Source of the DNA: Acidimicrobiia bacterium
GTDB taxonomy: Bacteria; Actinomycetota; Acidimicrobiia; Acidimicrobiales; Bin134
Direction: 5' to 3'
Assembly (NCBI GenBank): GCA_022826705.1
Contig: JAJDUJ010000009.1
Location: 62,001-126,000, forward strand
Length of the DNA: 64,000 bases
Below the pieces are notes generated by a model. It did not search any database and was not told the DNA's origin. It saw only the letters and a list, made by a program, of their open reading frames with translations. Below, in pieces: positions 331 through 21,173 of this stretch; within the stretch, counting starts at the first letter, position 1; each line of letters starts with the position of its first letter. Position numbers and translations under genes: made by a program.

Positions 331-1089
331 TTAGGGCCGCATCAGGCCGCCGCCGTCCACCTGGAATGTCTCGCCGGTGACGTATTGGCTGGCGTCGGAC
401 AGCAGGAAGCCGATCACCGGGGCGATGTCGGCCACCGGGTCTCCGTCTCGGCCCATGGGGTGGTTGTCGAACAGAGCCTTGTAGGACGCCATGCGGTCGG
501 GGTCATCCTCGGGGGGCGCCCGGTGCGCCACCGACGCCGGGTTCACGCAGTTCACGGTGATGCCGTCGCGGCCCCATTCCCGGGCCGCAGTGCGGGTCAG
601 CGAGCGGATGGCTTCCTTCGATGCCCCGTAGGGTCCGTAGCCCGGCCCGCCGGTGATCCCCACGTTGGTGCCAAAGGTGATGATGCGCCCCCGGCCCTTG
701 GCCGCCATGTGGGGGTGAACCGCCTGCATGAACCACAGCGTGCCCTTGGGCCCGGTGTTGAGCAGCAGGTCCATGTCTGACTCGTCCACATCCAAGAGCG
801 GCATTGTCGGGCGGAACGACTGGGCGTTGGCCACCAAACCGTCCACCGTGCCCCACCGCTCCACTGTGCGGTCAACCACCTCATTGGTGTGGTCCTGGTC
901 GCCCACCGACCCGGCTACCGCCAGCACATCACCGCCCCGCTCCCGCAGCTCGGCCGCGGTGGCCTCGATCCGCTCGGGCTTGCGGCTGGTCACCGTCAGC
1001 TTCACGCCCTCGTCCACCAAGTACTCCGCGATACCCCGGCCAATCCCCTTCGAGGCTCCGGTGAGGATCACGACCAGACCTTCCAGCAT
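331..1089 (-). CDS. SDR-family oxidoreductase
   Basis: This is a 252-residue classical short-chain dehydrogenase/reductase, the usual family length. The N-terminal TGASKGIGRG is the Rossmann dinucleotide loop and YGASK is the catalytic Tyr-Lys motif; the C-terminus ends GGGLMRP. Two signatures depart from consensus: the residue 13 before the catalytic Tyr, normally Ser, is Thr (GTNVGITGG), and the usual NNAG reads ANAQS. The frame runs further upstream to 1338, but that part does not look like protein and would overlap the divergent gene. The ATG at 1089 is preceded by TACGCT with a 6-nt spacer, which fits a leaderless start. Substrate unknown; the neighbours (sulfotransferase, thioesterase) suggest lipid or acyl metabolism. 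Confidence 0.88.
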   Translation of the reverse strand: MLEGLVVILTGASKGIGRGIAEYLVDEGVKLTVTSRKPERIEATAAELRERGGDVLAVAGSVGDQDHTNEVVDRTVERWGTVDGLVANAQSFRPTMPLLDVDESDMDLLLNTGPKGTLWFMQAVHPHMAAKGRGRIITFGTNVGITGGPGYGPYGASKEAIRSLTRTAAREWGRDGITVNCVNPASVAHRAPPEDDPDRMASYKALFDNHPMGRDGDPVADIAPVIGFLLSDASQYVTGETFQVDGGGLMRP

Positions 1090-1095
1090 CGTCTG

Positions 1096-1101
1096 AGCGT
1101 A
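1096..1101 (-). promoter_or_regulatory. TANNNT -10 element, leaderless SDR start
   Basis: TACGCT on the minus strand ends 6 nt before the ATG at 1089. No Shine-Dalgarno sequence lies between them, so transcription would begin at or next to the start codon. Confidence 0.5.
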
Positions 1102-1147
1102 CTGTTCTAAGCAGTGCAAACTCGCTTCAGCCTGCAATGCGGCGGCC

Positions 1148-2416
1148 ATGAGCTGGTCCCCTGATCCTCGGCCCGACTGGGTAGCCGCCGTGAACCGGGG
1201 CGACGCCGGTCCGGTGGTCGACGAAGCCCGTCGCCCGTTCGACCCCCACTTGCTGATGGCCGAGGCCCTGGTGCGCCAAGGCCGAGCCCCCGACGACCGG
1301 GCCGCGCTCGGCGACGGTGCCTTCGTCGAACCCCTCACCCTGTTCTGTCACGGGCTGGAGCACGAAGCCGACCTCACCGTCATGGGCCGATGGATGTCCC
1401 GCCGCATGATCCTGCGGCTCCTAGAAGTCCGCATCCAGATCAACGACTATCTGGCCGCCGATCCCGGCACCCTCGACGAACCCATCGACCAGCCCATTTT
1501 CGTGATCGGCGCCCCCCGAACCGGCACCACCGTCATGCACGGAATACTGGCCCAGGATCCCGCCCACCGGGCCCCCGAGGGCTGGGAGCTGCTGCGCCCC
1601 GTGCCCCCGCCCGATCCCGATCCCGACGTCCGGGCCACCGACCCCCGCATCGCCCTGGCCGGTGCCGAACTGGTCATGCCCCAGACGGTGGCCAGCGGGA
1701 TGCTGGCCATCCACGAGTACTCCGGGCGCATGTTCAAGGAGTGCCTGTCGGCCATGTCGTTCGAGTTCCGCTCCGAGGAGATGGTCAGCCGCACCGACGT
1801 GCCCACCTACCAAGCCTGGTACGACACCGCCGATCTGCGCCCCGCCTATCGCACCTACAGCCGAGTGCTCCAGATCTTGCAGCGGCGCATGCCCACCCGC
1901 CGGTGGGTGCTCAAGTCGCCCGCCCACCTCCAGGGCCTGCCAGCGCTCCTAGAAGTGTTCGACGACGCCCGCTTCGTGATCACCCACCGCGACCCCACCG
2001 CCATCCTGCCCTCGGTCACCAGCCTCATCGCCACCATGCGCTGGGCCCACTCCGATCGGGTGGACTTCGCCGCCATCGGCCGCTACCACCTCGAGCTCTA
2101 CGCCCGCAGCCTCGACAACCTCATCGACCTCATCGATTCCGGCCGCCTGCCCGCCGACCGCACTGCCCAGGTGCCCCATCGCCAGGTGAGCACCGAGAAA
2201 TTGGCCGCCGCCCGGTCGGTGTACGAGCAGCTCGGCATGGAGCTGAGCGCCGACGCAGAGGCCGCCATGGCCGCCTACGTGGATGCCACTCCTCCCGGCA
2301 AGCACGGCGAACACCGCTATGAGTTCGAAGACCTTGGGCTCACCCGAGACGAAGTGAGGGCCCGCTTCTCCCGCTACATCGACCGTTTCGACATCCCGGT
2401 TGCTGACAATGGCTGA
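1148..2416 (+). CDS. Sulfotransferase family protein
   Basis: This 422-residue protein carries the PAPS 5'-phosphosulfate loop FVIGAPRTGTT at residues 118-128. It also has a second nucleotide-binding segment: VLKSPAHL, then ITHRDP with downstream Ser residues. The N-terminal 110 residues are a helical extension common in actinobacterial members of this family (sulfotransfer_3 type). It would transfer sulfate from PAPS to a hydroxyl or amine of an unknown, probably lipid or sterol, acceptor in the cytosol. The ATG at 1148 is the first plausible start. The 3' end overlaps the thioesterase gene by 8 bp, so the two are probably translated together. Confidence 0.85.
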   Translation: MSWSPDPRPDWVAAVNRGDAGPVVDEARRPFDPHLLMAEALVRQGRAPDDRAALGDGAFVEPLTLFCHGLEHEADLTVMGRWMSRRMILRLLEVRIQINDYLAADPGTLDEPIDQPIFVIGAPRTGTTVMHGILAQDPAHRAPEGWELLRPVPPPDPDPDVRATDPRIALAGAELVMPQTVASGMLAIHEYSGRMFKECLSAMSFEFRSEEMVSRTDVPTYQAWYDTADLRPAYRTYSRVLQILQRRMPTRRWVLKSPAHLQGLPALLEVFDDARFVITHRDPTAILPSVTSLIATMRWAHSDRVDFAAIGRYHLELYARSLDNLIDLIDSGRLPADRTAQVPHRQVSTEKLAAARSVYEQLGMELSADAEAAMAAYVDATPPGKHGEHRYEFEDLGLTRDEVRARFSRYIDRFDIPVADNG

Positions 2417-3089
2417 CCAAGAGCACCCTGAGACCGCGTCGGCTTATCGGCTGGCCGAGCTACTGGGCGACCTGCCCCACCCCGACGACTTCGGCCCCGA
2501 GGCCTACGAACTGGTGGAGCGCACCCGCGATCTGGTGGCCGCGGTATCCGCCAACGACGCCGACCCCACCACCCGAGCCGAGATCGCCGCCGCTCTGGCC
2601 GACATCACCGAGCGGCTGCGGAGCGCCGCCCGCGACCCCCACATCGTGGTGGCCAAAGACCACGAAGGCACCATCTACAACCTCACCCAAGCCGGATCAG
2701 GCCTGCTCAACCCCCACGCCCCCCGCCTCATCTTCGACCCGGTGCCCCCGCCCGACCCCGACGCCGAGCCCCGACCCGTGGAGATGCGGGCCATCGTCAC
2801 CCTCACCGAGGCCCACTCCGGCCCACCCCACCGGGCCCACGGCGGCGTGGTGGCCACCATCCTGGACGAGGCCCTGGGTAACGCCGCCACCCGAGCCGGC
2901 GCCACCGGCCTCACCGCTGGCATCAACATCCGCTACAAGACCGGCGTCCCCCTCCACACCCCCCTAGAAGTCACCTGCCGCTACTCCCACACCGAAGGCC
3001 GCAAACACATAGCCACCGGCGAGCTAAGGGCCGGCGACACAGTGTGCGCTACGGCAGAGGCGATCTTCATCACCGAGCCCCGCTCGTGA
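2409..3089 (+). CDS. PaaI-type hotdog acyl-CoA thioesterase
   Basis: This is 226 residues. The C-terminal half is a hotdog domain with the characteristic HRAHGGVVATILDEALG helix (HGG, then the catalytic acidic residue). Strands AGINIRYKTGVPLHTPLEV and ATGELRAGDTVCATAEAIF follow. The first 90 residues are a helical extension predicted to be separate from the fold. The expected reaction is hydrolysis of an acyl-CoA or aryl-CoA thioester. A TTG at 2400 is in frame, but the ATG at 2409, which overlaps the sulfotransferase stop, is the better start. The function is generic: the sequence does not tell which CoA ester is used. Confidence 0.82.
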   Translation: MADQEHPETASAYRLAELLGDLPHPDDFGPEAYELVERTRDLVAAVSANDADPTTRAEIAAALADITERLRSAARDPHIVVAKDHEGTIYNLTQAGSGLLNPHAPRLIFDPVPPPDPDAEPRPVEMRAIVTLTEAHSGPPHRAHGGVVATILDEALGNAATRAGATGLTAGINIRYKTGVPLHTPLEVTCRYSHTEGRKHIATGELRAGDTVCATAEAIFITEPRS

Positions 3090-3133: not shown

Positions 3134-4255
3134 TCAGCGGAGGGAGATCACCAGCGAGCCGATGTGGTCTTTGCGCTCGAAGTCAGCCTGCGCGGTGTGA
3201 ATGTCCTCTAGGGGGTACACCCCGGCGACCACCGGGCGGACCTCGCCCCGCTCGATATAGCCGACCAGATCGGCAAACACCTGGGGAACAAAGACCGTCG
3301 CCCCGTACAGCTCCAGGTCGTTGAGATACAGGGTGCGCAGGTCGAGCTGCACCAGCGGCCCGGCGATGGCCCCCGAGGTGGCGTAGCGCCCGCCTCGGCG
3401 GAGCGCGTCCAGGCAAGCAGCGAAGTGGTCGCCGCCCACCACGTCGGCCACCACGTCGAACGGCCCCCCGTTGGCCGTCACCGCGGCCTCCAGCGGCGCC
3501 GGATCGTCGCGGGCCACCACTGCGTCGGCGCCTAGGTCCGCCAGGCCTTCGAGTTTGGCCCGCCCGGCGATGGCCACCACCTGAGCCCCTCGCCGCTTGG
3601 CCAGTTGAATCAGGGCGGTGCCGACACCCCCCGAAGCTCCGGTGACCGCAACCGACTGGCCCGGCTCGACCTCCACCCGCTGCAACATGTGCTCAGCGGT
3701 CGACCATGAGCACGCGAAGCTGGCCAGCTCCACGTCGCTCAACGGGGTGTCGATGGGGTGGGCGTTGCCCGCCGGCACTGCGCAGTACTCGGCAAAACCG
3801 CCGTCGTGCTCGCTGCCCAGGTAACCAGCCAGCTCGCGGCGCTCGGGGTGGTGGGAGTCGCGGATCCAAGGGTCGACCACCACCCGGCGGCCAATCAGCC
3901 CCTGATCCACGCTGGCGCCGGCGGCCACAACCCGCCCGCTCACTTCAGCCCCTTGAATGCGGGGAAAGACCAGCGCCCCTCGGCCCCAAGTGCTGTCGTC
4001 GGGCCGGACCTCCTCGAACCCGCGGCCGTCGGTGGCACCGGTCACCGACCGGCTGTACCAGCCCACCCGGGTGTTGATGTCTGTGTTGTTGATGCCGCAG
4101 GCCGCCACCTCGATCAGCACCTCGTGGGCACCGGGCTGGGGGACGGGCACATCGCTCCGCACCTCGATCATCTCGGGGCCGCCGTTGCCCACCAGCAACG
4201 CCGCCCGCATGGTCCTGGGAATCCAAGACCCGCTCGGCGCACCTTGGCTGGTCAT
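3134..4255 (-). CDS. MDR-family zinc-type alcohol dehydrogenase / quinone oxidoreductase
   Basis: This 373-residue medium-chain dehydrogenase/reductase has an N-terminal GroES-like domain (VLIEVAACGINNTDINTR) and a Rossmann domain with VTGASGGVGTALIQLAK. The structural-zinc cysteine cluster is absent, and the usual catalytic zinc Cys is followed by GINNTD, as in quinone-oxidoreductase-type members. It is therefore probably an NADPH-dependent enoyl, quinone or aldehyde reductase. The start ATG shares ATGA with the stop of the FrhB-like gene, making it the last gene of a five-gene operon starting at 9541. Substrate unknown. Confidence 0.85.
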   Translation of the reverse strand: MTSQGAPSGSWIPRTMRAALLVGNGGPEMIEVRSDVPVPQPGAHEVLIEVAACGINNTDINTRVGWYSRSVTGATDGRGFEEVRPDDSTWGRGALVFPRIQGAEVSGRVVAAGASVDQGLIGRRVVVDPWIRDSHHPERRELAGYLGSEHDGGFAEYCAVPAGNAHPIDTPLSDVELASFACSWSTAEHMLQRVEVEPGQSVAVTGASGGVGTALIQLAKRRGAQVVAIAGRAKLEGLADLGADAVVARDDPAPLEAAVTANGGPFDVVADVVGGDHFAACLDALRRGGRYATSGAIAGPLVQLDLRTLYLNDLELYGATVFVPQVFADLVGYIERGEVRPVVAGVYPLEDIHTAQADFERKDHIGSLVISLR

Positions 4256-5517
4256 GAGCTGGCTGCCCTCATCCGAGCCGCCGCCCCTCTGCGCTGGGCC
4301 GCGGCGCGCTCCGGCTCCAGGCGGCGGCCCAACTCGTCGATCCGCAGCCCCGGTGCGGCGATGGGTGGCACTCCGGCATCGGCCATGCCTCGATATCGGG
4401 CCGCCAGGGCCTCCTTTTTCCGCACTTGGTGGGGCTGCATGTCGTCCAAGTCCCGCGGGCCTATGGCGTCTCCCAGCACAATCCGCCCATCAGCAGCCGC
4501 CCGGCTCAGGAGCGACTCGCCCACGTCACTGCGGGCGACAACGCCGCTGAAGCCCTCGTCCTCACCGGTGGGCGCCCCGCCGGGCCACACGTCGGCCACC
4601 GCCACGTCGGCGGCCTCCCCCAGGGCATCAGGGCACAGCTTGCAGCGGGTCTCAAGGTCCCAAGTGCCCTCGTCCTCCCACAATTCCAGGTAGCCCACCT
4701 CGAATGACCGTCCGTCACGGGTCTCCACCCGGGTGGGGCCGGGATTGCCGTGGCCCCGATAGCGAATGAGCGTCACGTCGGGCTCGGCCACCCCTAGCTG
4801 GTCCAGCAGCCGCTGCGTCTTGGAAAACCGCGACTGTCCACCGCACACCATGGCCAACCGGGCCACCACCAGCTCGTCGATGCGGGAGTCGGCAGCCGCT
4901 CGCCGGTGCAGCGCCCCGAGGTCGCAGGGCTTGGCGATAACCGCAAACGGCTCGGCCCGGTCAAGCGCCACCCCCAAGCCGGCCAAGGGCGCGGTCGGCC
5001 CGTATCGGGATCCTGCGTTGGCCAGCACCTCCTCGGGCGTGGAGCTGATCACCCAGCGGGTTCGCAGGGGTCGGGAGGGATCGGGGCCCACATGGAGGAC
5101 GAATGCGGCCTCGCCAATGGCCAACGCGTGCTGGCCCAACGCGGTGAGCACTCCCGCGGTGGCCGCGGTGAAGCGCACCTCGGGATCGGCCGCCCACGCG
5201 TAGCGCATGGTGCCGTATCGGCCCCACACAGGGTCGAGCGGCAAGCTTGAATCGGCCCGGGGCTCGGCAACCACCCCGGGACAGGCGTTGAGGATGGCTC
5301 GCTCCTCCTCGGCCGAGAATCCGTCCACCGGCCCGGGCCGCAGCGATCCGCTCGGCGTTGCCGCCATCGTCACCCGCCCGCCGGTGACCGCCTCACACAG
5401 CCCACAGCCAACGCACAGGTCGTGGGCCACCACCTCGGCCACGCTGGCCATCCCGCTCACCTTTCCGGCGTGGCTCGCTCCCTCAACAAGCGCCTCGGAT
5501 TCGCGCTGACTGGTCAT
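4252..5517 (-). CDS. FrhB-like coenzyme F420 hydrogenase/dehydrogenase beta-subunit family protein
   Basis: This 421-residue protein resembles the F420-binding FrhB/FpoF family. An N-terminal cluster of Cys35, Cys38, Cys41 and a downstream Cys79-Pro suits a 4Fe-4S centre. The FrhB N-domain (FTAATAGVLTALGQHAL) and FrhB C-domain (VIAKPCDLGALHR, then CGGQSRF and CKLCPDALGEAADVAVAD) follow. Such proteins hold FAD and Fe-S clusters and pass electrons between F420 or ferredoxin and a partner. No hydrogenase subunits are nearby, so it is a stand-alone family member, possibly supplying electrons to an operon partner. It is coupled by ATGA overlaps to genes on both sides. Confidence 0.82.
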   Translation of the reverse strand: MTSQRESEALVEGASHAGKVSGMASVAEVVAHDLCVGCGLCEAVTGGRVTMAATPSGSLRPGPVDGFSAEEERAILNACPGVVAEPRADSSLPLDPVWGRYGTMRYAWAADPEVRFTAATAGVLTALGQHALAIGEAAFVLHVGPDPSRPLRTRWVISSTPEEVLANAGSRYGPTAPLAGLGVALDRAEPFAVIAKPCDLGALHRRAAADSRIDELVVARLAMVCGGQSRFSKTQRLLDQLGVAEPDVTLIRYRGHGNPGPTRVETRDGRSFEVGYLELWEDEGTWDLETRCKLCPDALGEAADVAVADVWPGGAPTGEDEGFSGVVARSDVGESLLSRAAADGRIVLGDAIGPRDLDDMQPHQVRKKEALAARYRGMADAGVPPIAAPGLRIDELGRRLEPERAAAQRRGAAARMRAASS

Positions 5518-6263
5518 CGAACTCGCAGGCGATGGGCAAAGAGATGGTCATAGTGGGGTCGGGTGACCTCGTAGGCCTCTTGGACCCGCTCGGGAGCGGT
5601 AGTGATGTCGACATAGGTCCGAGCTTGGGGCTCAAGGCCTCGGGAGTTTCGGAGGTTCTCATGGAAAGAGCCGCCGTCCCACCAGCTCACCTCGTCGCGG
5701 GCACCGGACTCCCACCGCAGCGCACTCTCGATGAAATCGATGCCCACCGCCTGGCACCAGGCCGCTACCACGCCGGGCGGGTCCTCCAGCAGGTCGTCGC
5801 TGTCGATCACCGGCGGCGGTGTGCCCGATTTGCACACCAGATGGTCGAACAGGGCCCGCTGCTCGGCGAATCCCGTCTCCTTGATGTGGAAGTCGGGCCA
5901 GTGCTTGTACATGGAGGTGAGGGTCTTGGCCGGGTCGCGGATGATGAAGCTGTGGGTGAAGCAAGCGAAAAACTCGTCGCCCCACAGGGCATCGAGATAG
6001 AGGGGGAAGTCCTTGATGAACACCGGGCTGTCGGCCGCCGCCGCCTTCAGGGTGGCCCAAGCCGACTGGTAGGTGAGGCCGGGGGTGCGCACGCTGTCGG
6101 GCTGAAGGCGGGGCCAGTCGGGCGACTCCCCCTGATACCACACCTCTCCGAAGGGCTCGTGGAAGCAGGTCATGTCGCCCCGCATCCGCATCATCCACTC
6201 GAAGGCGGTGGATGTGGACCGGGGAACAGCCCACAAGGCCAGGATCTTCGGGCCGCTGGTCAT
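5514..6263 (-). CDS. Sulfotransferase-like P-loop protein
   Basis: This 249-residue protein has the start-proximal loop LALWAVPRSTSTAFEWMM, matching the phosphosulfate-binding loop of short bacterial sulfotransferases. It continues with a HEPFGE motif and FIIRDPAKTLTSMYKHW (the Arg-Asp-Pro and Ser of the 3'-phosphate site). Members of this group are annotated as sulfotransferase family proteins, and some lie in natural-product or aminotransferase contexts. It is linked by ATGA overlaps both to the racemase-fold gene upstream and the FrhB-like gene downstream. Sulfation activity is plausible but not shown, and the acceptor is unknown. It is only distantly like the sulfotransferase at 1148. Confidence 0.75.
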   Translation of the reverse strand: MTSGPKILALWAVPRSTSTAFEWMMRMRGDMTCFHEPFGEVWYQGESPDWPRLQPDSVRTPGLTYQSAWATLKAAAADSPVFIKDFPLYLDALWGDEFFACFTHSFIIRDPAKTLTSMYKHWPDFHIKETGFAEQRALFDHLVCKSGTPPPVIDSDDLLEDPPGVVAAWCQAVGIDFIESALRWESGARDEVSWWDGGSFHENLRNSRGLEPQARTYVDITTAPERVQEAYEVTRPHYDHLFAHRLRVR

Positions 6264-7084
6264 GTCGGCCTCTGTCCCCCCAGCATGGCCAGCAGCGAGC
6301 CGTGCCCTGGCGCCGCCGACAAGCCCAGCTCCGACAACATGGCCCAGTAGAGGGCGATGTCCGACGCCACCACCGGGGTGCCGGTGCGCTCCTCTACGGC
6401 CTTGGCCACCTGAAGCATCCTGAATCCGGCGCCGGTCTGGACGATGGCGTCGGCATTGGGGGCCCGCCGGTGGGCGTCCACTGCGGCGGCGGTCATCAGA
6501 TCATCGGGATAGTCCCACAAGGTGGCGGCTTCAATGGCCAGCTTCTCGTCGTGGTCGGCCACCAATCCTTGGTCGATCAGGTCGCCCGCCCACATGATCT
6601 CGAAACCTGCCGCCTCCAAATAGCGGTTGATGCCCACCGACCAGTCGGGGCGGAAATAGCCGTTGACCACGGTGACGGTGGTGGCGCCGATGGCCCGCAG
6701 CGCCTCCACCAAGCACTGCCCGGCCATGAGGAAGCGCACGCCGGTCTCGTCGGCCAGCCGTCGGCAGAACTCCTCGATCTCGTCGGGACCGGTGGTGCCC
6801 GAGCAGTGCACCCAGTTGGTGCCCACCTGCCCGATCACCTGACAGTGCGACTGGGCCAAGCAGGACGCAGCCTCGCTCAACAGCTCGAAGTTGCCGGCCC
6901 GCTCGTCGAGCCCCCACTCATAGCCGGGTATGTGGAGCACCCGTTGGAGCACTCCGGTGCCCAGAGGGGCCACTTGCAAAAACTGCTGCGGGCTGTCGTC
7001 GAAGTACCGGGGCGTGGTCACGAACCCGGCGTAGGCCTGGTATCGGCGAGGGGCGGTAAGGGTGGCGGACACAGCTCTCTCCAT
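6260..7084 (-). CDS. Asp/Glu racemase / maleate isomerase / AMDase-fold protein
   Basis: This 274-residue protein fits the two-domain Asp/Glu racemase superfamily closest to maleate isomerase and arylmalonate decarboxylase. It has a YAGFVTTPRYFDD N-terminus, NWVHCSGTTG (Cys in the first active-site loop), an internal VTVVNGYFR strand and C-terminal VASDIALYWAML. The second active-site loop reads IVQTGAGFRML with no cysteine, where racemases and arylmalonate decarboxylase carry a catalytic Cys. It is therefore unlikely to be a two-Cys racemase. It starts 6 bp after the flavoprotein stop and ends in an ATGA overlap with the sulfotransferase-like gene. A decarboxylase or isomerase role on a carboxylated intermediate is possible but speculative. 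Confidence 0.7.
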   Translation of the reverse strand: MERAVSATLTAPRRYQAYAGFVTTPRYFDDSPQQFLQVAPLGTGVLQRVLHIPGYEWGLDERAGNFELLSEAASCLAQSHCQVIGQVGTNWVHCSGTTGPDEIEEFCRRLADETGVRFLMAGQCLVEALRAIGATTVTVVNGYFRPDWSVGINRYLEAAGFEIMWAGDLIDQGLVADHDEKLAIEAATLWDYPDDLMTAAAVDAHRRAPNADAIVQTGAGFRMLQVAKAVEERTGTPVVASDIALYWAMLSELGLSAAPGHGSLLAMLGGQRPT

Positions 7085-7090
7085 CCTGGG

Positions 7091-9541
7091 CTACCCGCGC
7101 AACCGGGCGCTGGTGGGATCGTAGATCGGCTCGCTCAGCACTTGCGCCGGGCGCAACTCGCCCACCACCCGTACCTGCAACTCGGTGCCGGGCTCGCTGT
7201 GCTCGGGGGCCAGGTAGGCAAAGCCCAAGCCCTGTCCCACGGTGTGGCCGTAGGCGCCGGTGGTGATCAGCCCCACGGGCTCGCCGTCGGCGTACACCCC
7301 GTCGCTGCCGTGGACATCGGCGTCGTCGGTGTCGATGGCCAGGTAGGCCAGCTTCCATCGGTAGGGATGGCGCCCTGATTGGGCCTGCTCCCGACGGCGG
7401 GCCAATGCGTCTCGGCCCACAAACGGCCCTTTGTCGAGCTTGACAAAGCGGTGGAGCCCGGCCTCATCGGGGCCCACGTCGTGGGTGAGGTCGCGGCTCA
7501 CCATGTACTGCTTCTCCATGCGCAGCGAGTCGAGGGCGTGATTGCCCACGTTGGCCATGCCCAGGTCTTGGCCCGCCTCCCACAACGCGTCGTACAGATC
7601 GCCCAGATCAGCCGTCGGGGCGTGCAGCTCCCAGCCCAGTTCGCCGACAAAGCCCACCCGGAGGGCCCGCACATCCACTCCGGCCACGATGATGGTCTGG
7701 GCGCTGAGCCATCGGAATGACTCATTGCCCAAGTCGGCATCGGTACATCGGGCCAGCAGCTCGCGAGCTCGGGGCCCGGCCACGGCCAGAACGCCGAGGT
7801 CCTCGGAACATACCTTCAGCTCGGCACGGGCGCCGGCCGGCCAGTGGGTCTCGAAGTACTCCCGGTCTTTCTGCTCTCCCACTGCTGCCGACACCAGATA
7901 GAAGTGGTCGTCGCCTAGCCGGGTGATGGTGGCCTCGCCCTCTATTCGCCCGGTGGGGGTGAGGAAGTAGCTGAGGGCGATCCTCCCCACCGACGGCAGC
8001 GTGTTGGTGGTGAGCCGGTCCAGCACCGCCGCGGCTTCGGGGCCGAGGATGTCGAACTTGGCGAAGGCGGTGCTGTCCAAAATGCCTACCCGCTCTCGCA
8101 CCGCCCGGCACTCCTGTGCGGCCACCGGGAACCAGTCGGTGTGGCGAAACGCCACCACATCCTCCTGGACCAGTCCGGCCGCTCCGGGGAACCACTTGGG
8201 CCGCTCCCATCCGTATACCTGGGTGAACACCGCACCCTTGTCGGAAAACCGCTGGTGCAGTGAGTTCACCCGATAGGGGCGCAGCTCGGGACGCTCCAGC
8301 CCCGGAATCGGCGTCTGATGGCGGTACTCGTAGTCTTCGGCCCCTTTGATTCGCCCATAGCGCAGCGCATCGTCGGGCGGCACGAACCCGAAGCGGCGGG
8401 CGTCGTAGCCGCGGACGCTCACCTCGGTCTCGCCGTGCACCATCCACCGGGCCAGTTCCCGCCCCAGTCCGGGCCCGTCGGCGATTCCCACCTGCACCCC
8501 CGCCATCATCCAGAAATTGGGGATGCCCGACGGCCCCAGCAGGGGCTCGCCGTCGGGAGTGTGGGCGATGGCCCCCCGGATGGCCCGTCTAATGCCCAAC
8601 GGCTCCAGCACCGGCATTCGCTCGAAGGCTCGGGCCAGCCAGTGCCCGATCCGGTCGTAGTCGGCGGGGAAGAGGGGGCTTTCCAGCGACCAGTCGGGTC
8701 CGTCGGGCCAGGCGGTCTCGGCATCGCGCTGCTCGTAGATGCCGATGAGGCCCGACATCTGCTCTTGGCGGAGATAGCCCGATACGTAGTCGTCGCGCAC
8801 CACGGGCAGCTCGTGTTCGAGGTCGGCAAACTCGGGAACCGTGTCGGTTACCAGATAGGTGTGCAAGACGTTGGCCATGGGCACCGAGAGGCCCACCATG
8901 CCCGCCACTCGATGGGCGTAGCAGCCTGCCGCGTTCACCACGTGCTCGGCCATAACAACGCCCTGCTCGGTGACCACCTCGAACGACCCGTCATCTAGGC
9001 GGCTGATGTCGATCACCCGGTTTCGGCGGCTCACCTGCGCCCCTCGGCTGCGGGCCACCGAAACCATGGCGTTCTCCGCCCCGGTGGGATCGACGTGTCC
9101 GTCGTCGGGAGTCCACACCGCGCCGATGATCGGCTCGACGTCGTAGAACGGATGGCGCTTGGCCATGAAGTCGCGGTCGGCCCACTCCATGTGGTTGCCC
9201 ACGTAGTCGGCCACGCCCAGCTGCCCCTTGAGCCAGTCCACCTCGATGGGCTGGTAGGCCACCCGGAAGCTCCCGCTGCGATGCCACGACGTGGCGATGC
9301 CGCTCTCGGCCTCCAGCGAGGCATAGAGCTCGCAGCCGTATTTGCGGAAGTAGGCCAGGGTATAGCTCGAAACCGAGTGAGTCACCTGGCCGGCGGCGTG
9401 CCAAGTAGAGCCCGAGGTCAACTCGCCCTTCTCCACCAGCAGGGTGTCGGTCCAGCCCTCGTGGGCTAGGTGGTACAGCAGGCTGGCACCGCAGATGCCG
9501 CCGCCCACAATCACCACCTGGGCTGACTCAGGCACCGCCAT
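7091..9541 (-). CDS. Dimethylglycine/sarcosine dehydrogenase-like FAD oxidoreductase with GcvT domain
   Basis: This 816-residue protein matches the length and order of dimethylglycine dehydrogenases. An FAD Rossmann motif VVIVGGGICGASLL occupies residues 9-22. TSGSTWHAAGQ follows, with His48 at the position that carries covalent FAD in the family. Then come the DAO domain, an FAO linker region and a C-terminal aminomethyltransferase (GcvT, folate-binding) domain with VGFVGELGWELH. The expected reaction is oxidative N-demethylation of dimethylglycine, sarcosine or a related N-methyl amine, passing formaldehyde to tetrahydrofolate. The frame continues upstream to 9763, but the ATG at 9541 directly precedes the FAD motif and has TACAAT 8 nt upstream. 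It is the first gene of the five-gene operon down to 3134. Confidence 0.88.
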   Translation of the reverse strand: MAVPESAQVVIVGGGICGASLLYHLAHEGWTDTLLVEKGELTSGSTWHAAGQVTHSVSSYTLAYFRKYGCELYASLEAESGIATSWHRSGSFRVAYQPIEVDWLKGQLGVADYVGNHMEWADRDFMAKRHPFYDVEPIIGAVWTPDDGHVDPTGAENAMVSVARSRGAQVSRRNRVIDISRLDDGSFEVVTEQGVVMAEHVVNAAGCYAHRVAGMVGLSVPMANVLHTYLVTDTVPEFADLEHELPVVRDDYVSGYLRQEQMSGLIGIYEQRDAETAWPDGPDWSLESPLFPADYDRIGHWLARAFERMPVLEPLGIRRAIRGAIAHTPDGEPLLGPSGIPNFWMMAGVQVGIADGPGLGRELARWMVHGETEVSVRGYDARRFGFVPPDDALRYGRIKGAEDYEYRHQTPIPGLERPELRPYRVNSLHQRFSDKGAVFTQVYGWERPKWFPGAAGLVQEDVVAFRHTDWFPVAAQECRAVRERVGILDSTAFAKFDILGPEAAAVLDRLTTNTLPSVGRIALSYFLTPTGRIEGEATITRLGDDHFYLVSAAVGEQKDREYFETHWPAGARAELKVCSEDLGVLAVAGPRARELLARCTDADLGNESFRWLSAQTIIVAGVDVRALRVGFVGELGWELHAPTADLGDLYDALWEAGQDLGMANVGNHALDSLRMEKQYMVSRDLTHDVGPDEAGLHRFVKLDKGPFVGRDALARRREQAQSGRHPYRWKLAYLAIDTDDADVHGSDGVYADGEPVGLITTGAYGHTVGQGLGFAYLAPEHSEPGTELQVRVVGELRPAQVLSEPIYDPTSARLRG

Positions 9542-9591: not shown

Positions 9592-10704
9592 ATGGTTCAT
9601 GCCCATCCCGGCTTGAAGAATCCCGAGTACTACGTCCCGGGGTTGCCGGCCGACTATGTGGCCCAGCGCTACGGCATCGCGCCGGACGACATCGCCAAGC
9701 TTGGCTCGGCGGAGAACCCCCATGGCGCCTCCCCCAAGGCCAGGGCTGCGGTGGCCGACGCACTCGACCGCCTCCACCTCTATCCGCCGTGGACCGCCGA
9801 GCCCCTGCGAGACAAAATCGCCGACACCTACGGCTACCAGCCCGACCAGGTGGTGTGCGGCGCGGGGGAGACCGAGATCATCTCGTTGGTCATCCGGGCG
9901 TTCTGCGAGCCCGGCGGCAAGGTGATGATGCCGGCCCCCTGTTTTCCCATCTACCACCTGTTTGCGGAGGCTGAGGGACGCATGCCGGTCTTGGTCCACG
10001 AGGCCACTCGCCGGCCCGCCATGGCGCTAGACCCCGAGGCCTACGCCGCGGCCATCGACCCCGACACCCGGATTGTGTTCATCACCAATCCGCACAGTCC
10101 GTCGGGCACCTGGCTGGAAGAGGCCGACGTGCGCCGAATCGTCGAGGCTGCCCCCCAGGCGCTGGTGGTGCTCGACGAGGCCTATGTCCACTATTCCGAC
10201 ACCTCCGGCTACATCCACCTGGCCAGGGAGTACGAGCACTTGATCGTGCTGCGGACGTTCTCCAAGGCCTTCGGACTGGCCGGGCTGCGGATCGGCTTCG
10301 GCGTGGCCGCCCGGCCGATCATCGACGCCCTCTTGGCCGTCAAGCCCACCTGGAATATGGGCCAGCTCCAGATCGCCGGCGGCGTCGCTGCCCTCGACGA
10401 CCACGAGCACGTGGCCCGCACCGTGTCCACCATCGTCGAGGCCCGCCACCACGTCCAAGGCCGCTTCGGGGAACTGGATCGGTTCCGCATGGTGCCCGAC
10501 AGCCGCTCCAATTTCTTCTTGGTCGAGATTCTCGACCCTGATACAAATTCCACCGAGGTCTTCAACGGTCTGCTCGAGCGGGGGGTGATTGTGAAGGATG
10601 GCGCGTTGTCATGGCGGGGCCTAGACGACCGCTTCCTGCGCTGTGACGTGAATTTCACCGAGCGCATGGACCGCCTGGTTGACTCCCTGGCCGATATGGA
10701 CTGA
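9592..10704 (+). CDS. HisC-like class I/II PLP aminotransferase
   Basis: This 370-residue fold-type I PLP enzyme resembles histidinol-phosphate aminotransferase. It shows AENPHG near the N-terminus, GAGETEIISL, ITNPHSPSG, VLDEAYVHYS (the Asp that contacts the pyridine nitrogen) and RTFSKAFGLAGLRIGF (the Schiff-base Lys in SKAF). No histidine genes are nearby, so a catabolic or promiscuous aromatic or imidazole aminotransferase role is as likely as HisC. The ATG at 9592 has a GAGAGAGG purine run 4-11 nt upstream; an in-frame start at 9541 would overlap the divergent gene's start. It is followed 1 bp later by the Rieske gene. Confidence 0.82.
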   Translation: MVHAHPGLKNPEYYVPGLPADYVAQRYGIAPDDIAKLGSAENPHGASPKARAAVADALDRLHLYPPWTAEPLRDKIADTYGYQPDQVVCGAGETEIISLVIRAFCEPGGKVMMPAPCFPIYHLFAEAEGRMPVLVHEATRRPAMALDPEAYAAAIDPDTRIVFITNPHSPSGTWLEEADVRRIVEAAPQALVVLDEAYVHYSDTSGYIHLAREYEHLIVLRTFSKAFGLAGLRIGFGVAARPIIDALLAVKPTWNMGQLQIAGGVAALDDHEHVARTVSTIVEARHHVQGRFGELDRFRMVPDSRSNFFLVEILDPDTNSTEVFNGLLERGVIVKDGALSWRGLDDRFLRCDVNFTERMDRLVDSLADMD

Positions 10705-10705
10705 G

Positions 10706-11785
10706 ATGGCCGAAGTGACGAGGGTGGGTTCTCGACACAATGGCCTCGATGGTCGCTACTACACCGACCCGGATGTCTTCGCCCATGAACTCGACCGCGT
10801 CTTCGCCCATGCCTGGCAACTCGTCGGACACGTATCGCAAGTGGCCTCGCCGGGGCAGGCATTCACTGCCTCGGTGGGCGACGAGAGCGTGCTGGTGGTC
10901 AACCACGATGGGGCGGTGCGCGGCCTCTACAACGTGTGCCAGCACCGCGGCCATCGGCTGGTGGAAGACGATTTCGCCGAGTTGTCGGCCATCACCTGCC
11001 CCTATCACGCCTGGACCTACGACCTCGGCGGACGGCTTGTCAATGCCCGAGGCGAAGACGTGGGCGAGCTGTGCGTGCCCTCGGTCCGCCTCGACACCAT
11101 GGCCGGATTCCTTTTCGCCAACCTCGACCCCGATGCGATTCCGCTCGAAGACACCGTTCCCGGAGTCGAGGCCGAGCTGCTGGCCATGGCCCCCGATGCC
11201 GGCCAGCGGGTGCTGACGACCCGGCGCCTCCAACTGATCAATGCCAACTGGAAGGTGGCGGTGGAGAACTACAACGAGTGCTATCACTGCCCCAACGTCC
11301 ACAAGAGCTTCACAACCAACACGGTCACGCCCGGGAGCTATCGCATCTCCCTCCGAGGGCCAACCGTCCACCACACCGCGCTGGGGCCGCCTCTGGAGTC
11401 CTTTGGTTCCACCGGCCATGTGGACGTTGGCGAGTATGGCGCCTTCTTTACCTGGCCGGTGTCCTCCATCCAGTGCTATCCGGGCCGGGTTCTCAACACG
11501 TTCCGCTGGGTGCCCCTAGCCGTCGATCAGACCCTGCTCATCCGGGAATGGTGGCTCGACCGGCCCGATCCCACTCCCGAGCAGCGGGAGGTGATCGATC
11601 GGGACTGGTCCACCACCGTGGTGGAGGACTTGAGCATCATGGAATCGGTGCAGCAGGGCGTGGCCAGCCGCGGCTACCAGCCCGGCCCCTTGATCGTTGA
11701 TCCCGGAGGGGTGGCCGGCGTCCACGCCGAGAACTCGGTACTCCATCTCCAAAAGCTGCTGCTGGACGCGCTCGATGGCCCCTGA
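10706..11785 (+). CDS. Rieske non-heme iron oxygenase alpha subunit, ECYHC (betaine/carnitine-oxygenase-like) type
   Basis: This is 359 residues. Rieske ligands are Cys78-x-His80 (CQHRGH) and Cys98-x2-His101 (CPYHAW). The mononuclear-iron site is in ENYNECYHCPNVH: His194 and His199, with Glu191 at the bridging position where most ring-hydroxylating oxygenases have Asp. From memory, a Glu there and the ECYHC string occur in the quaternary-ammonium group (CntA carnitine monooxygenase, GbcA glycine betaine monooxygenase). That subfamily and the adjacent dimethylglycine-dehydrogenase-like gene suggest oxidative demethylation of a betaine. Aromatic substrates cannot be excluded. No reductase is next to it. 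The ATG at 10706 follows the aminotransferase stop by 1 bp. Confidence 0.83.
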   Translation: MAEVTRVGSRHNGLDGRYYTDPDVFAHELDRVFAHAWQLVGHVSQVASPGQAFTASVGDESVLVVNHDGAVRGLYNVCQHRGHRLVEDDFAELSAITCPYHAWTYDLGGRLVNARGEDVGELCVPSVRLDTMAGFLFANLDPDAIPLEDTVPGVEAELLAMAPDAGQRVLTTRRLQLINANWKVAVENYNECYHCPNVHKSFTTNTVTPGSYRISLRGPTVHHTALGPPLESFGSTGHVDVGEYGAFFTWPVSSIQCYPGRVLNTFRWVPLAVDQTLLIREWWLDRPDPTPEQREVIDRDWSTTVVEDLSIMESVQQGVASRGYQPGPLIVDPGGVAGVHAENSVLHLQKLLLDALDGP

Positions 11786-13166
11786 CAACCGGTCGCCTTC
11801 CCGCTATTTGGCCGACTTCTTGGCCGGACTCACCGGCCGGGTTGAAGAACGCCTCTTGCACCAGGCGGGCGATGCCTTGGTGGACACCTTGGGCTGCATG
11901 ATTCAGGGGGCGGCCCAGCCGTGGTCGCAGGCGGCCATTGCCCATGCGCTGGCCACTGGCGGTGGCGGATCGGCCACCGTGATCGGCGCCGACAACAGCC
12001 CCGGCTCGTACACCACCCCGGCGATGGCCGCCTTTGCCAATGGATCGTCTGCTCATGCTTTCGAGCTCGACGATGTGCATGAAGAGGCCATCAGCCATCC
12101 GGGCGCGGTGGTGGTGCCAGCGGCGATGGCGTTGGCCGAGGACCTAGGGGCGACCAACCTGGATCTGCTCGAAGCCATCCTGATCGGCTACGAGGCCATG
12201 GGTCGGGCCGGCATCGCCGTCGGACCGGCGGCCCACATGCTGGCCGGATTCCACCCGACCTCGATGTCGGGGGTGTTCGGCTCGGCCGCGGCCGCGGGCC
12301 GCCTGCTGGGATTCGACGGCCAGATGATGAACCATGCCTTTGGTCTCGCCGTCTCGCTGGCTTCGGGCACCATGGAATTCGCCTCCTCCGGCGGGATGGC
12401 CAAGCGGATCCATGCCGGTCGGGCAGCCGAGGCCGGACTGCTGGCCGCTTCTCTCGCCGCCCGGGGCGTCGAGGGCGCCGACGACGGGCTGGCCGGCCGC
12501 TACGGATTCTGTCGCGTGTTCGGCGTGGAACCCCAGATTGATCTTCTGACCGACGGGTTAGGCGACCGCTGGATGATCGACGAGATCACGGTCAAGCCCT
12601 ATGCGGCGTGCAGCGACATCCACCCGCTGATCCAAGCCACCGCCGAACTCCAGGCCGAGCACCGCTTCGATCCGGCTCAGATCATCCGAATCGAGGCCGA
12701 CTGCCCCACCAAGGCGGCCACCCAGAACAACTTGGACGGCACGGCCTCGGTCATGGCCGCGCAATACTCCGCGCCCTTCAACATCGCGGCGGCCCTCCTG
12801 GCCGACCCCCGCGACCCGGCCACCTATCGGCCGGAGCGGATTGGCGACCCGGCGTTGGCCGAACTCCAGGCCAAAGTGGCGCCGCTACAGGCCGCACCAG
12901 AGTTCGACCGCACCTACGCCTGGAAGATGGGCGGCAGGGTGCGGATCACTGCGGCCCGCGGGAAAGTGTTCGAGCGGACCGTTCACGGTCAGAAGGGTTC
13001 AATGCACGACCCCCTGAGCCGCCCCGAGCTTGACGCCAAGTTCGAGCGCTTAGTGGGCGGCCTCTATCCCGCTGGTGCCGCCGACGCCATCCGACAAGCA
13101 CTCCACGATCGCCATCAGCCCGCCGCCCTTCCTAACTACATAAGAAAGCCGGGGGATCCAACATAG
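11775..13166 (+). CDS. MmgE/PrpD family protein
   Basis: This 463-residue protein belongs to the MmgE/PrpD family (2-methylcitrate dehydratase fold). Seen are GDALVDTLGCMIQGA, NGSSAHAFELDDVHEEAISHPG, the central AGFHPTSMSGVFGSAAAAGRLLG and SGGMAKRIHAGRAAEAGLLAA. The family includes 2-methylcitrate dehydratase, cis-aconitate decarboxylase and many untested members. No prpB or prpC lies nearby, so a propionate role is not supported. The ATG at 11775 overlaps the Rieske gene by 11 bp, so it belongs to the operon starting at 9592. A GC-rich hairpin follows 16 bp after its stop. Confidence 0.85.
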   Translation: MAPDNRSPSRYLADFLAGLTGRVEERLLHQAGDALVDTLGCMIQGAAQPWSQAAIAHALATGGGGSATVIGADNSPGSYTTPAMAAFANGSSAHAFELDDVHEEAISHPGAVVVPAAMALAEDLGATNLDLLEAILIGYEAMGRAGIAVGPAAHMLAGFHPTSMSGVFGSAAAAGRLLGFDGQMMNHAFGLAVSLASGTMEFASSGGMAKRIHAGRAAEAGLLAASLAARGVEGADDGLAGRYGFCRVFGVEPQIDLLTDGLGDRWMIDEITVKPYAACSDIHPLIQATAELQAEHRFDPAQIIRIEADCPTKAATQNNLDGTASVMAAQYSAPFNIAAALLADPRDPATYRPERIGDPALAELQAKVAPLQAAPEFDRTYAWKMGGRVRITAARGKVFERTVHGQKGSMHDPLSRPELDAKFERLVGGLYPAGAADAIRQALHDRHQPAALPNYIRKPGDPT

Positions 13167-13182
13167 GCGTGGTGGGGGGTGG

Positions 13183-13238
13183 CCCGGCTCAGGGCGCCCG
13201 CCGCCCGGAGCCCGTCGAGGACGGCGGGCTGGGCCGGG
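13183..13238 (+). terminator. GC-rich stem-loop after the MmgE/PrpD gene
   Basis: Bases 13183-13203 can pair with 13222-13238. An inner 8-bp stem (GCCCGCCG with CGGCGGGC) and an outer 9-bp arm (one G-T wobble) are separated by a 4-nt bulge, with an 18-nt loop. There is no T-tract, so it is not a classical intrinsic terminator. It may still end or attenuate transcription of the 9592-13166 operon before the next Rieske gene. Confidence 0.45.
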
Positions 13239-13313
13239 ACAGGACCCGCCGCCACGCCGGAGGATGGTGTGTCGAAACTTGCCAGAACCCAGAGATATGC
13301 CACGATTACCGGC

Positions 13314-14663
13314 ATGGTCGACATCGCACCCCCAGACGAAGCCGACATCCTAGGCACCGCAGTAACCGCCTCAGGCCTAGCTGCTGAAGCCCCGGTGAAG
13401 ATCCCCGTCCAGCGCTACCTCTCCGCCGAATTCGCCGAGTTGGAATACGAGAAGATGTGGCCCAAGGTGTGGCACGTGGCCTGCACCGTCGACCACATTG
13501 CCAACCCCGGCGACTGGTTCGAGCACCGCCTCGGCAAATATTCGATCATCCTGGTTCGGGGCGAAGACGGCGTGCTTCGGGGCTTCCAGAACGTCTGCCG
13601 CCACCGAGGCAACTCCATCTGCCAGGGATCGGGCACCGGCATCACCGAGCTGCGCTGCCCCTACCACCGCTGGGCCTGGGACCTCACCGGCCGCCTCCGG
13701 GAGATCCCCTCCCGCCGGGGTTTCGGCCCCGTCAGCAACGAGGACCTCCCCTTGGTGCCCGTACAGGTGGACACCTGGGCCCGCCTGGTGTTCGTGAACC
13801 TCGACCTTGACGCCGAGCCGCTGGCCCAGTGGCTGGAGGGCATCCCCGACGACATCGCCTGGGCCAACCTCGATGAGTTCCGGGGCACCTATTCCACCGC
13901 CACCCCGGCGAACTGCAACTGGAAGGTGGTCAACGAGGGCTTCTCCGAGACCTACCACGTGCAGGGCCTCCACCGGGAGATGCTGGGCAGCATCAACGAC
14001 GTCAACTCCCCCCAGCGCATCTGGGACCGCCACGGCGTGTCGTACCAGCCCTACGGCGTGCCCAGCCCCCGGCTGGGCCGCAACGTCGACGACCAGACGG
14101 TGTGGGAGTCGTTCGTGGTCACCCAGGGCGGTCGCATGGGCCCCGACTATGCCGAGCCCGGCAATCCCGTCCCCGAGGTGCCCGATGGCCAGACCCTCCA
14201 AGACGTGATCGCCCAGAAGATCAGAGATCACCAGGCCACCATGGGCGTCGACCTGTCGGGCTACGACACCGCCCAGATAACCCACCTCAGCCAGTACAAC
14301 CTCTTCCCCAACACCACGGTGCTGATCAGCGCCGACATCTTCACCGTGCTCACCGCCCGGCCCGGTCCCAACCCCGACGAGGGCGAGCTGGCCACCATCC
14401 ACCTCAGCCGGATGCCGTCGGCCGACGCTCCGTCCTCCTCGCCGGTCCATGTCACCGTGCCCATGGACCAGGCCGACTTCGGGTTCGTGCTCAACCAGGA
14501 CTTCAGCGTCATCCGCACCATGCAATCCGGCCTCCACCAGCCCGGCTTCACCCATGTGTGGCTGTCGGGCGAGGAGTGCCGCATCATCAACATGCACCGC
14601 AACCTGGAGCGCTACCTGGGCCTTGAGCCTGGCGGCTGGATACCCGCCAATCAGGCCCGGTGA
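13314..14663 (+). CDS. Rieske non-heme iron oxygenase alpha subunit
   Basis: This is 449 residues, longer than the Rieske protein at 10706 and typical of ring-hydroxylating oxygenase large subunits. Rieske ligands are in CRHRG and CPYHRW; the catalytic iron site is in NEGFSETYHVQGLH (two His four apart, with Glu at the bridging position). The substrate is not evident. Start choice is uncertain. The ATG at 13314 has no Shine-Dalgarno sequence. A GTG at 13269 has GGAGG with a 5-nt spacer, but the 15 codons between them (AAA, CTT, AGA, TAT, ATT) are unlike the rest of the gene, so ATG was chosen. It is coupled by a GTGA overlap to the APH kinase gene. Confidence 0.85.
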   Translation: MVDIAPPDEADILGTAVTASGLAAEAPVKIPVQRYLSAEFAELEYEKMWPKVWHVACTVDHIANPGDWFEHRLGKYSIILVRGEDGVLRGFQNVCRHRGNSICQGSGTGITELRCPYHRWAWDLTGRLREIPSRRGFGPVSNEDLPLVPVQVDTWARLVFVNLDLDAEPLAQWLEGIPDDIAWANLDEFRGTYSTATPANCNWKVVNEGFSETYHVQGLHREMLGSINDVNSPQRIWDRHGVSYQPYGVPSPRLGRNVDDQTVWESFVVTQGGRMGPDYAEPGNPVPEVPDGQTLQDVIAQKIRDHQATMGVDLSGYDTAQITHLSQYNLFPNTTVLISADIFTVLTARPGPNPDEGELATIHLSRMPSADAPSSSPVHVTVPMDQADFGFVLNQDFSVIRTMQSGLHQPGFTHVWLSGEECRIINMHRNLERYLGLEPGGWIPANQAR

Positions 14664-19997: not shown

Positions 19998-21173
19998 ATG
20001 GCGGGACCGCTCACGCCTGACTTCTATCGTTACGAGTGGCATCCGCTGAGCGGCGTTCGTCTCGACGACGAGTTCGTGGTGGCCCAATGGGCCGACGGCG
20101 CCGAACTCCGCTGCTACCGGTGGTGGCTGGCCGAGCAACGCGATGTAGAGATCTCCTCCCGGGAAGGCCTGCTCGACCCCTGCGACCTGGGCGACCATTG
20201 GCGGGTGGCCGAGGCCTGGGCGGAGGCCGACGGGGCGCTGGCCGTGCGATGGGCGCACGACGATGTGGTCTCCCGCTACCACCCCGGCTGGCTCCGCCAT
20301 GTGGCCGACGGCCAGCATCGCCCCGAGAGCTTTCTCCCGGAACCCATCGCGTGGGACTCCTCGGTGCTTCCCGAACCGGTCACCTACCACGGTCCGACGG
20401 TGCTGGCCGACCCCGAGACGTTGCGGCTCTGGCTCAACGACTTGGCGGCCTACGGCCTGACCCGGCTCACCTCGCTTTCCGTTGAACCTAGCCAAGTGGA
20501 GGAGGTGGCCCGTCGAGTCGGCGTGCTGCGCGACTCCCACTTCGGCCCGGTATGGGACATCGAGGCGGTGCCCGATCCGACCTCCACCGCCTACATGAGC
20601 ATCGGGCTGGGCCCTCACACCGACCTCCCCTCGCTGGAGATACCTCCGGGATTCCAGTTCTTCCACTGCATCGAGAACTCCTGTGTCGGCGGGGCCAGCC
20701 AGATGAGCGACGGTTTGGCCATCGCCCGCTACCTGGAGCAGCACGATCCCGAGGTCTACGACGCCCTCACCACGCTGCGGTGGGTGTTCCACGGTCGGGG
20801 CGCCGAGGTCGACTGGCGCTGGTCGGGGCCGCTCATCGATTTGGGAGTGGCCGGTACACCCCTCACCCTGCGGACTTTCTATCCGGTGCGGACCTTCCCC
20901 GACATGGCCGCAGACGACATCCCCCGGGCTTATCGGGCAGTGCAGAAGCTGGGCGAGCTGTCCCGCGACCCCCGATTCCTGATCACCTACAGATTGGAGC
21001 CCGGCGACATTGCGGTATTCGACAACCGACGAGTGCAACATGCCCGGGAGCCGTTCGAAACCGCCACCGGTCGCCGCTTGTTCCGGGGGTGCTATATGAA
21101 CAGCGACGACATCTACTCCAAGCTGCGGGTGTTGAACCGTAGGGCTCAAGAGAGCAAGCTGGCTCCCGCATGA
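19998..21173 (+). CDS. Gamma-butyrobetaine-dioxygenase-like Fe(II)/2-oxoglutarate oxygenase
   Basis: This 391-residue protein has the two-part layout of gamma-butyrobetaine hydroxylase. An N-terminal domain of about 90 residues ends in SRYHPGWLR. A TauD-type double-stranded beta-helix follows. Iron ligands are His and Asp in GPHTDLPSLE and the distal His in RRVQHAREPF; the Arg that binds 2-oxoglutarate is probably in the following GRRLFRG. The family hydroxylates gamma-butyrobetaine to L-carnitine or trimethyllysine. ATGA overlap with the BKACE gene at 21170 supports a carnitine-type pathway. Related TauD/TfdA substrates cannot be ruled out. Confidence 0.8.
   Translation: MAGPLTPDFYRYEWHPLSGVRLDDEFVVAQWADGAELRCYRWWLAEQRDVEISSREGLLDPCDLGDHWRVAEAWAEADGALAVRWAHDDVVSRYHPGWLRHVADGQHRPESFLPEPIAWDSSVLPEPVTYHGPTVLADPETLRLWLNDLAAYGLTRLTSLSVEPSQVEEVARRVGVLRDSHFGPVWDIEAVPDPTSTAYMSIGLGPHTDLPSLEIPPGFQFFHCIENSCVGGASQMSDGLAIARYLEQHDPEVYDALTTLRWVFHGRGAEVDWRWSGPLIDLGVAGTPLTLRTFYPVRTFPDMAADDIPRAYRAVQKLGELSRDPRFLITYRLEPGDIAVFDNRRVQHAREPFETATGRRLFRGCYMNSDDIYSKLRVLNRRAQESKLAPA

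Follow-up and report, generated by a model that had tools for sequence, protein, structure and literature searches.

We analyzed a window of 64,000 nucleotides from an Acidimicrobiia bacterium (assembly GCA_022826705.1, contig JAJDUJ010000009.1, positions 62,001 to 126,000), whose genome comprises 3.45 Mb in 31 contigs, and identified in it a divergent gene cluster in which a racemase-fold protein (AMD) and a sulfotransferase-like protein (ST5) are encoded beside enzymes with a quaternary-ammonium signature. An earlier note on this DNA had described a five-gene operon encoding a dimethylglycine dehydrogenase (DMGDH)-like flavoprotein, AMD, ST5, an FrhB-like protein, and a medium-chain dehydrogenase/reductase (MDR). 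The five open reading frames (ORFs), all on the minus strand, were confirmed (Table 1), their family assignments were backed by Pfam, and the junctions are exact, with three 4-bp overlaps and a 6-bp gap between DMGDH and AMD that are repeated in other genomes of the genus. Families were assigned with Pfam, and NCBIfam matches were judged by the curated cut-offs; none of the five proteins passed the cut-off of any NCBIfam family, and none is therefore a recognized equivalog.

Table 1. Genes of the two arms of the cluster in the window
Gene product	Coordinates	Strand	Assignment or basis
MDR zinc-type dehydrogenase/quinone-reductase-like, 373 aa	3134..4255	-	Pfam ADH_N/ADH_zinc_N; NCBIfam
FrhB-like iron-sulfur flavoprotein, 421 aa	4252..5517	-	Pfam FrhB_FdhB_N/C; N-terminal CVGCGLC cluster motif
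ST5, PAPS sulfotransferase-like, 249 aa	5514..6263	-	Pfam Sulfotransfer_5
AMD, Asp/Glu-racemase/arylmalonate-decarboxylase fold, 274 aa	6260..7084	-	Pfam Amdase
DMGDH-like flavoprotein, 816 aa	7091..9541	-	DAO (FAD) and GcvT (folate) domains; Pfam DAO+GCV_T+GCV_T_C
HisC-like class I/II aminotransferase, divergent arm	9592..10704 (ATG 9592; TTG 9541 possible)	+	Pfam, NCBIfam
RiA, CntA-like Rieske oxygenase, NYNECYHC motif	10706..11785	+	CntA alignment
MmgE/PrpD protein	11775..13166	+	Pfam; nearest structure iminodisuccinate epimerase, next cis-aconitate decarboxylase
Second Rieske oxygenase, EGFSETYH motif	13179..14663	+	Pfam; extension confined to genus

The five genes form one arm of a larger divergent cluster. 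The other arm, on the opposite strand, starts roughly 50 bp upstream of the flavoprotein gene and encodes the aminotransferase, RiA, and the MmgE/PrpD protein, with the second Rieske protein and then an EcKL/APH-like kinase gene downstream. The aminotransferase, RiA, and MmgE/PrpD genes (9541/9592 to 13166) were counted in the unit because they are kept with the five-gene arm in distant relatives. The proposal of a single conserved unit therefore stands, with an extent greater than the five genes first named.

The scan covered the class (395 genomes), the order of genome G453 (297), the order of genome G454 (61), and a named genome collection, and it identified the cluster in marine Acidimicrobiia and in scattered other bacteria. 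The closest relatives with named records are metagenome bins of Acidimicrobiia, of which one carries the label Sva0996 marine group, and some of the bin names presumably denote marine sponge-derived material. Both arms recur outside the genus, with DMGDH-AMD-ST5-FrhB on one side and aminotransferase-RiA-MmgE on the other, and in other Acidimicrobiia families the cluster recurs with changed flanks. The order DMGDH-AMD-ST5-FrhB was identified in about 11 loci, of which one carries a further AMD paralogue and another an inserted ORF. Adjacency of these families in this genome only had been set beforehand as the finding that would overturn the claim; the neighborhood search found them together elsewhere, and the claim stands. 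Pairwise protein distances were correlated between all cluster genes (r 0.59-0.98), with none of 500 permutations as high for any pair, and the aminotransferase, kept with DMGDH in 14 loci, reached r = 0.95 with it; such values are as expected for co-inherited genes, and common host phylogeny adds to them.

The composition of the cluster varies among relatives. Those outside the genus add an RpiR-type regulator (SIS+HTH_6), an enolase-superfamily (MR_MLE) gene, and in some cases a DddP-like M24 gene, as at L059:6282-7454 within the cluster of Acidimicrobiaceae relatives, where the protein falls below the cut-off of this dimethylsulfoniopropionate lyase family. In L056 and L082, AMD-ST5 sits after MmgE in the aminotransferase arm and the ends of MmgE and AMD overlap, and the L085 cluster has a class III aminotransferase in place of the HisC-like one. 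Indolepyruvate-oxidoreductase-type genes adjoin the cluster in L049-L051 and were treated as neighbors rather than parts because they are absent at other loci. The cluster is unevenly distributed in the genus, with a full-length AMD match in 6 of 22 genomes. In G007 (L038), AMD contains stops, and DMGDH and AMD are fragmentary, with ST5, FrhB, and MDR apparently intact; a partial DMGDH copy remains in G015 and a remnant at a contig edge in G010; and in G014 (L046) only the last approximately 34 DMGDH residues lie beside AMD, with the aminotransferase, RiA, and MmgE genes absent from the stretch.

The AMD-ST5 pair is the most persistent element of the cluster. AMD followed by ST5 on the same strand was identified in 45 loci, Alphaproteobacteria included, and in 44 of these ST5 starts at most 30 bp from the AMD stop or overlaps it, as measured by a script that picked the ST5 start nearest the AMD stop; in the remaining locus a single ORF intervenes. 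One of the 45 loci (L120) has a disrupted ST5 frame, and the order of the 2 genes is reversed in L037. Seven AMD homologues had no adjacent ST5 (L036, L081, L083, L087, L088, L091, and L114). In two genomes (L083:9514-11913 and L081:7707-11352), AMD and FrhB are kept without ST5 near genes for a Rieske ferredoxin, a 2Fe-2S ferredoxin, and a heme-oxygenase-like protein. Two AMD-family genes occur in the cluster at L053:10007-12319, the second shorter and with a cysteine near the usual second catalytic position. Matches to AMD in a plasmid collection had 25-35% identity, with unrelated settings in the records examined.

AMD belongs by fold to the superfamily of arylmalonate decarboxylase (AMDase), maleate isomerase, and Asp/Glu racemase. 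Its AlphaFold model (predicted local distance difference test, pLDDT, 85) matched 4ix1 and AMDase best in the PDB and also maleate isomerase, and AMDase Gly74, Thr75, and Tyr126, unlike Ser76 and Gly189, are matched by Gly88, Thr89, and Tyr143. It differs from the superfamily at both catalytic cysteine positions, which in an alignment with cysteine-bearing relatives correspond to Gly88 and Gly218, with glycine likewise present in the close group; the earlier reading of a missing second cysteine was correct, and the first is missing as well. True AMDase requires Cys188 as proton donor, and roles have been described for Gly74, the dioxyanion-hole residues Thr75 and Ser76, Tyr126, and Gly189 (PMC4996985). 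Because Gly218 occupies the Cys188 position and the first cysteine is also gone, AMD is neither an AMDase nor a two-cysteine racemase or maleate isomerase, and we ruled out both a cysteine-based racemase and a true AMDase as its identity. Invariant residues in the close AMD group include Trp91, His93, Cys94, Asp147, Trp148, Arg222, and Asp242. The nearest solved structure by both sequence (5e-29) and fold is 4ix1 (Rhodococcus opacus OPAG_01669), which gives AMD no role, as it is an uncharacterized protein of 26% identity with no assigned function. We know of no member of the superfamily that is paired with a sulfotransferase.

ST5 carries the motifs PRSTST and RDPAKTLTS, and among 40 homologues PRSxST was identified in 39 and RDP/RNP...S, by pattern, in at least 34. 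The 5'-phosphosulfate loop, the 3'-phosphate motif RxP...S, and the fold are all those of sulfotransferases using 3'-phosphoadenosine 5'-phosphosulfate (PAPS), and ST5 is a putative PAPS sulfotransferase that may act on a hydroxyl. A predicted model was used because phmmer of ST5 against solved structures gave no real match; the best matches of the model (pLDDT 87) were the sulfotransferase domains of Synechococcus olefin synthase and curacin. Genes of PAPS metabolism were identified directly 3' of ST5 in five loci, with CysD and CysNC in L055 and L146, CysQ in L057, CysC then CysQ in L122, and CysC in L123, where it overlaps ST5 by 4 bp. CysC makes PAPS, and CysQ removes 3'-phosphoadenosine 5'-phosphate (PAP), the by-product of sulfotransfer. 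The window genome encodes an adenosine 5'-phosphosulfate (APS) kinase away from the cluster. A cysC gene is also found close to more distant relatives of ST5, in two plasmid clusters of Streptomyces and one of a cyanobacterium; the latter (L126:7992-9920) also contains amidohydrolases, a 2-oxoglutarate (2OG) oxygenase, and a MATE transporter and resembles the known cylindrospermopsin cluster. The PAPS motifs and the CysC, CysD, CysNC, and CysQ neighbors of ST5 relatives bear out the sulfur chemistry proposed earlier, although not the accompanying idea that the substrate may be sulfated beforehand. Sulfate is more likely added in the pathway than carried in on the substrate, because a sulfotransferase is part of the cluster and the Acidimicrobiia clusters showed no sulfatase; a sulfatase adjoins the pair at a single locus, L116.

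The N-methyl amine theme of the earlier note also held. The best solved match of RiA is the carnitine monooxygenase CntA (179 bits), with the motif NYNECYHC aligned to NYMECYHC of CntA so that Tyr203 (pi-cation) and Glu205 (bridging) are both retained, and ECYHC was present in all 18 RiA homologues. Group Va Rieske enzymes are defined by an aromatic residue at CntA position 203 (PMC7948474), and RiA has both this residue and the bridging glutamate. The nearest solved structure to the flavoprotein is human DMGDH, matched over the full length (526 bits); its covalent-FAD motif STWHAAG aligns with the human enzyme and is found in 16 of 18 relatives (the remaining 2 are fragmentary), so that the DAO and GcvT domains and the covalent-FAD histidine of the dimethylglycine dehydrogenase family are all in place. 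Two DMGDH paralogues (44% and 37%) lie elsewhere in the genome, and since the 44% one is retained across the genus without the cluster, the cluster copy may act on a substrate other than dimethylglycine. In L116, the AMD-ST5 locus adjoins a true choline-sulfatase (710 bits, cut-off 433) and carnitine-dehydrogenase-like and betaine-aldehyde-dehydrogenase-like genes, and at L036:9296-12174 a distant AMD without ST5 adjoins a gamma-butyrobetaine-dioxygenase-like gene and a short-chain dehydrogenase/reductase (SDR). The product of the MR_MLE gene in relatives is similar to cis-3-hydroxyproline dehydratase, at a score under the cut-off, and its nearest solved relatives include betaine racemases or epimerases. 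About 6 kb past the cluster (window positions 19998-22057), a gamma-butyrobetaine-dioxygenase-like TauD gene precedes one for a beta-keto acid cleavage enzyme, and amidohydrolase genes surround the two; the region is possibly a second ammonium-compound pathway.

The FrhB-like protein has the N and C domains and the iron-sulfur motif of its family, and CxxCxxC was identified in all 21 homologues. The window genome has a CofH match over the cut-off and so makes F420, the partner expected earlier. No CofH match was identified in G778 and G785, which carry an FrhB relative beside AMD-ST5, and that of G438, which also carries the FrhB relative, was weak and below the cut-off, although some of these genomes may be incomplete. 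The family assignment holds, and F420 is probably not the general partner of FrhB, a partnership that is weakened rather than excluded because G778 and G785 may be incomplete. MDR is a variable member, joined to or replaced by the MR_MLE gene in other loci.

Sequence and genome context together show that the unit is conserved, that AMD and ST5 form a fixed pair, that ST5 is linked to PAPS, that RiA bears the ammonium signature, and that AMD has lost both cysteines. With this in mind we tentatively propose that the cluster processes a trimethylammonium (betaine-like) compound by demethylation, sulfonation by ST5, and use of the activated intermediate by AMD. The CntA-like RiA would oxidize the quaternary ammonium substrate, and the DMGDH-like flavoprotein would move N-methyl groups onto folate. 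The aminotransferase and MmgE/PrpD proteins, with the MR_MLE enzyme in relatives, may work on the carbon skeleton before ST5 passes a sulfonate from PAPS to a hydroxyl of the intermediate. The cysteine-less AMD would then act on the sulfated intermediate; the simplest course would be a decarboxylation or a proton abstraction with expulsion of sulfate. FrhB and MDR could serve as product reductases. The order of these steps, sulfate as the leaving group, and the identity of the substrate are deduced. As a narrower and rather doubtful proposal, AMD-ST5 might constitute a two-enzyme sulfo-activation module, in which a hydroxyl near a carboxylate is sulfonated and AMD drives loss of the carboxylate or a proton with sulfate leaving. 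Such an elimination would need no proton donor, which would account for the loss of both AMD cysteines. In olefin synthase, sulfonation of a beta-hydroxyl activates the chain for decarboxylation and desulfation (PMC3903477), and the plant sulfotransferase LGS1 is proposed to make sulfate a leaving group (PMC8713700).

Several points weigh against the proposed route. AMDase Ser76 and Gly189 are replaced in AMD by Asn90 and Ala219, and decarboxylation by AMD is a guess for this reason. Known group Va Rieske enzymes oxidize carbon and do not N-demethylate, so RiA and DMGDH may not act in succession. The cluster also showed no betaine transporter. The likeness of ST5 to the olefin synthase and curacin domains is at the level of fold (template modeling score, TM, about 0.5), with other PAPS enzymes close behind, and the five loci in which cys genes abut ST5 are all outside the class of the window, with none in Acidimicrobiia. 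The expense of PAPS is high for plain catabolism, and the substrate, product, and activity of every member of the route are predictions.

The main rival to elimination is that sulfate stays on the product. The cluster would then make the sulfate ester of a hydroxylated ammonium compound or amino acid, perhaps an osmolyte or signal, with AMD as an epimerase or isomerase preparing the acceptor. We regard this as possible, if unlikely: the expense of PAPS is normal in biosynthesis, ST5 relatives occur with cysC in Streptomyces and cyanobacterial biosynthetic clusters, and the choline-sulfatase of L116 makes choline-sulfate-like esters plausible at that locus, whereas the Rieske, DMGDH, RpiR, and aminotransferase genes appear catabolic, the conserved core is without exporter or carrier-domain genes, and both racemase cysteines are gone. 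Ordinary catabolism of an N-methylated, perhaps presulfated, amino acid or betaine, with an F420-linked FrhB and another role for the sulfotransferase-like protein, would account for the DMGDH and Rieske assignments, the hydroxyproline dehydratase-like MR_MLE relatives, and the ability of the window genome to make F420. It appears fairly improbable given the PAPS-synthesis and PAP phosphatase genes after ST5 in five loci, the lack of a sulfatase in the Acidimicrobiia clusters, and the FrhB relatives in genomes without a CofH match. Two independent modules, one for betaine demethylation and one for AMD-ST5-FrhB sulfation, could also have become adjacent by repeated gene gain and share no metabolite, as might be read from the occurrence of AMD-ST5 or AMD-ST5-FrhB without DMGDH in L034, L048, L060, L084, and L146 and from an AMD-ST5 distance correlation below that among the demethylation genes. 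This is very unlikely, as genes of the two modules are interspersed in a single operon and overlap one another (MmgE-AMD in L056 and L082, RiA-AMD in L086 and L124), DMGDH and AMD are 6 bp apart in the genus, and unrelated lineages repeatedly show the tie to ammonium-compound genes. An adjacency due to chance or limited to the genus is excluded because the DMGDH-AMD-ST5-FrhB order recurs in about 11 loci, some of them outside the genus, and AMD precedes ST5 in 45.

The cluster is most reasonably classed among the quaternary-ammonium gene clusters, as a variant bearing the AMD-ST5 pair. It shares with the catabolic clusters for glycine betaine, proline betaine, and carnitine (GbcA, Stc2, and CntA with flavoprotein demethylases) a quaternary-ammonium Rieske oxygenase and a DMGDH-type N-demethylase, and its relatives share with hydroxyproline-betaine clusters an enolase-superfamily enzyme. 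It differs from the GbcA, Stc2, and CntA clusters in adding a PAPS sulfotransferase, a cysteine-less racemase-fold protein, FrhB, and MmgE/PrpD, and in showing no Rieske reductase or betaine transporter gene. The closest solved folds to ST5, the olefin synthase and curacin CurM sulfotransferase-thioesterase systems, are polyketide synthase domains acting on carrier-bound acyl chains with a thioesterase, whereas ST5 stands alone and is paired with AMD. A carrier protein and thioesterase are absent from the conserved core, the 4HBT gene at 2409-3089 being confined to the genus, and the likeness to these systems is one of fold only. Among azinomycin/vazabitide-type Streptomyces clusters, a LysW-type amino-acid cluster that contains cysC and cysD also encodes a distant ST5 relative (35% identity, 73% query coverage); these clusters serve carrier-protein antibiotic biosynthesis, have no annotated AMD gene, and reportedly form aziridines via sulfate elimination.

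We found no description of the AMD-ST5 pair in the searchable literature: no paper came up for the combination of genes seen here, for AMDase together with a sulfotransferase, or for betaine together with a racemase and a sulfotransferase, most subscription journals lying outside the search, and the homarine-degradation literature searched described no such operon. Trimethylammonium compounds are abundant marine sources of nitrogen and carbon, and many of their degradation routes are not yet known. If the proposed route is true, PAPS-dependent sulfonation coupled to oxidation and demethylation would give sulfate activation a new role in metabolism and would be, to our knowledge, the first sulfonation as an activating step in quaternary ammonium metabolism. 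The pair offers a compact two-protein test of whether a cysteine-less racemase-fold enzyme has gained an elimination reaction, and it can be used as a search key for more clusters.

The flanks of the cluster in the window contain further genes. Convergent with MDR, positions 331-3089 encode an SDR, a second sulfotransferase-family protein (PF13469), and the 4HBT thioesterase, in an order kept in the genus and not outside it. An FG-GAP repeat protein at 15753-17390 is variable, with 49-59% identity, whereas its neighbors have about 90%.

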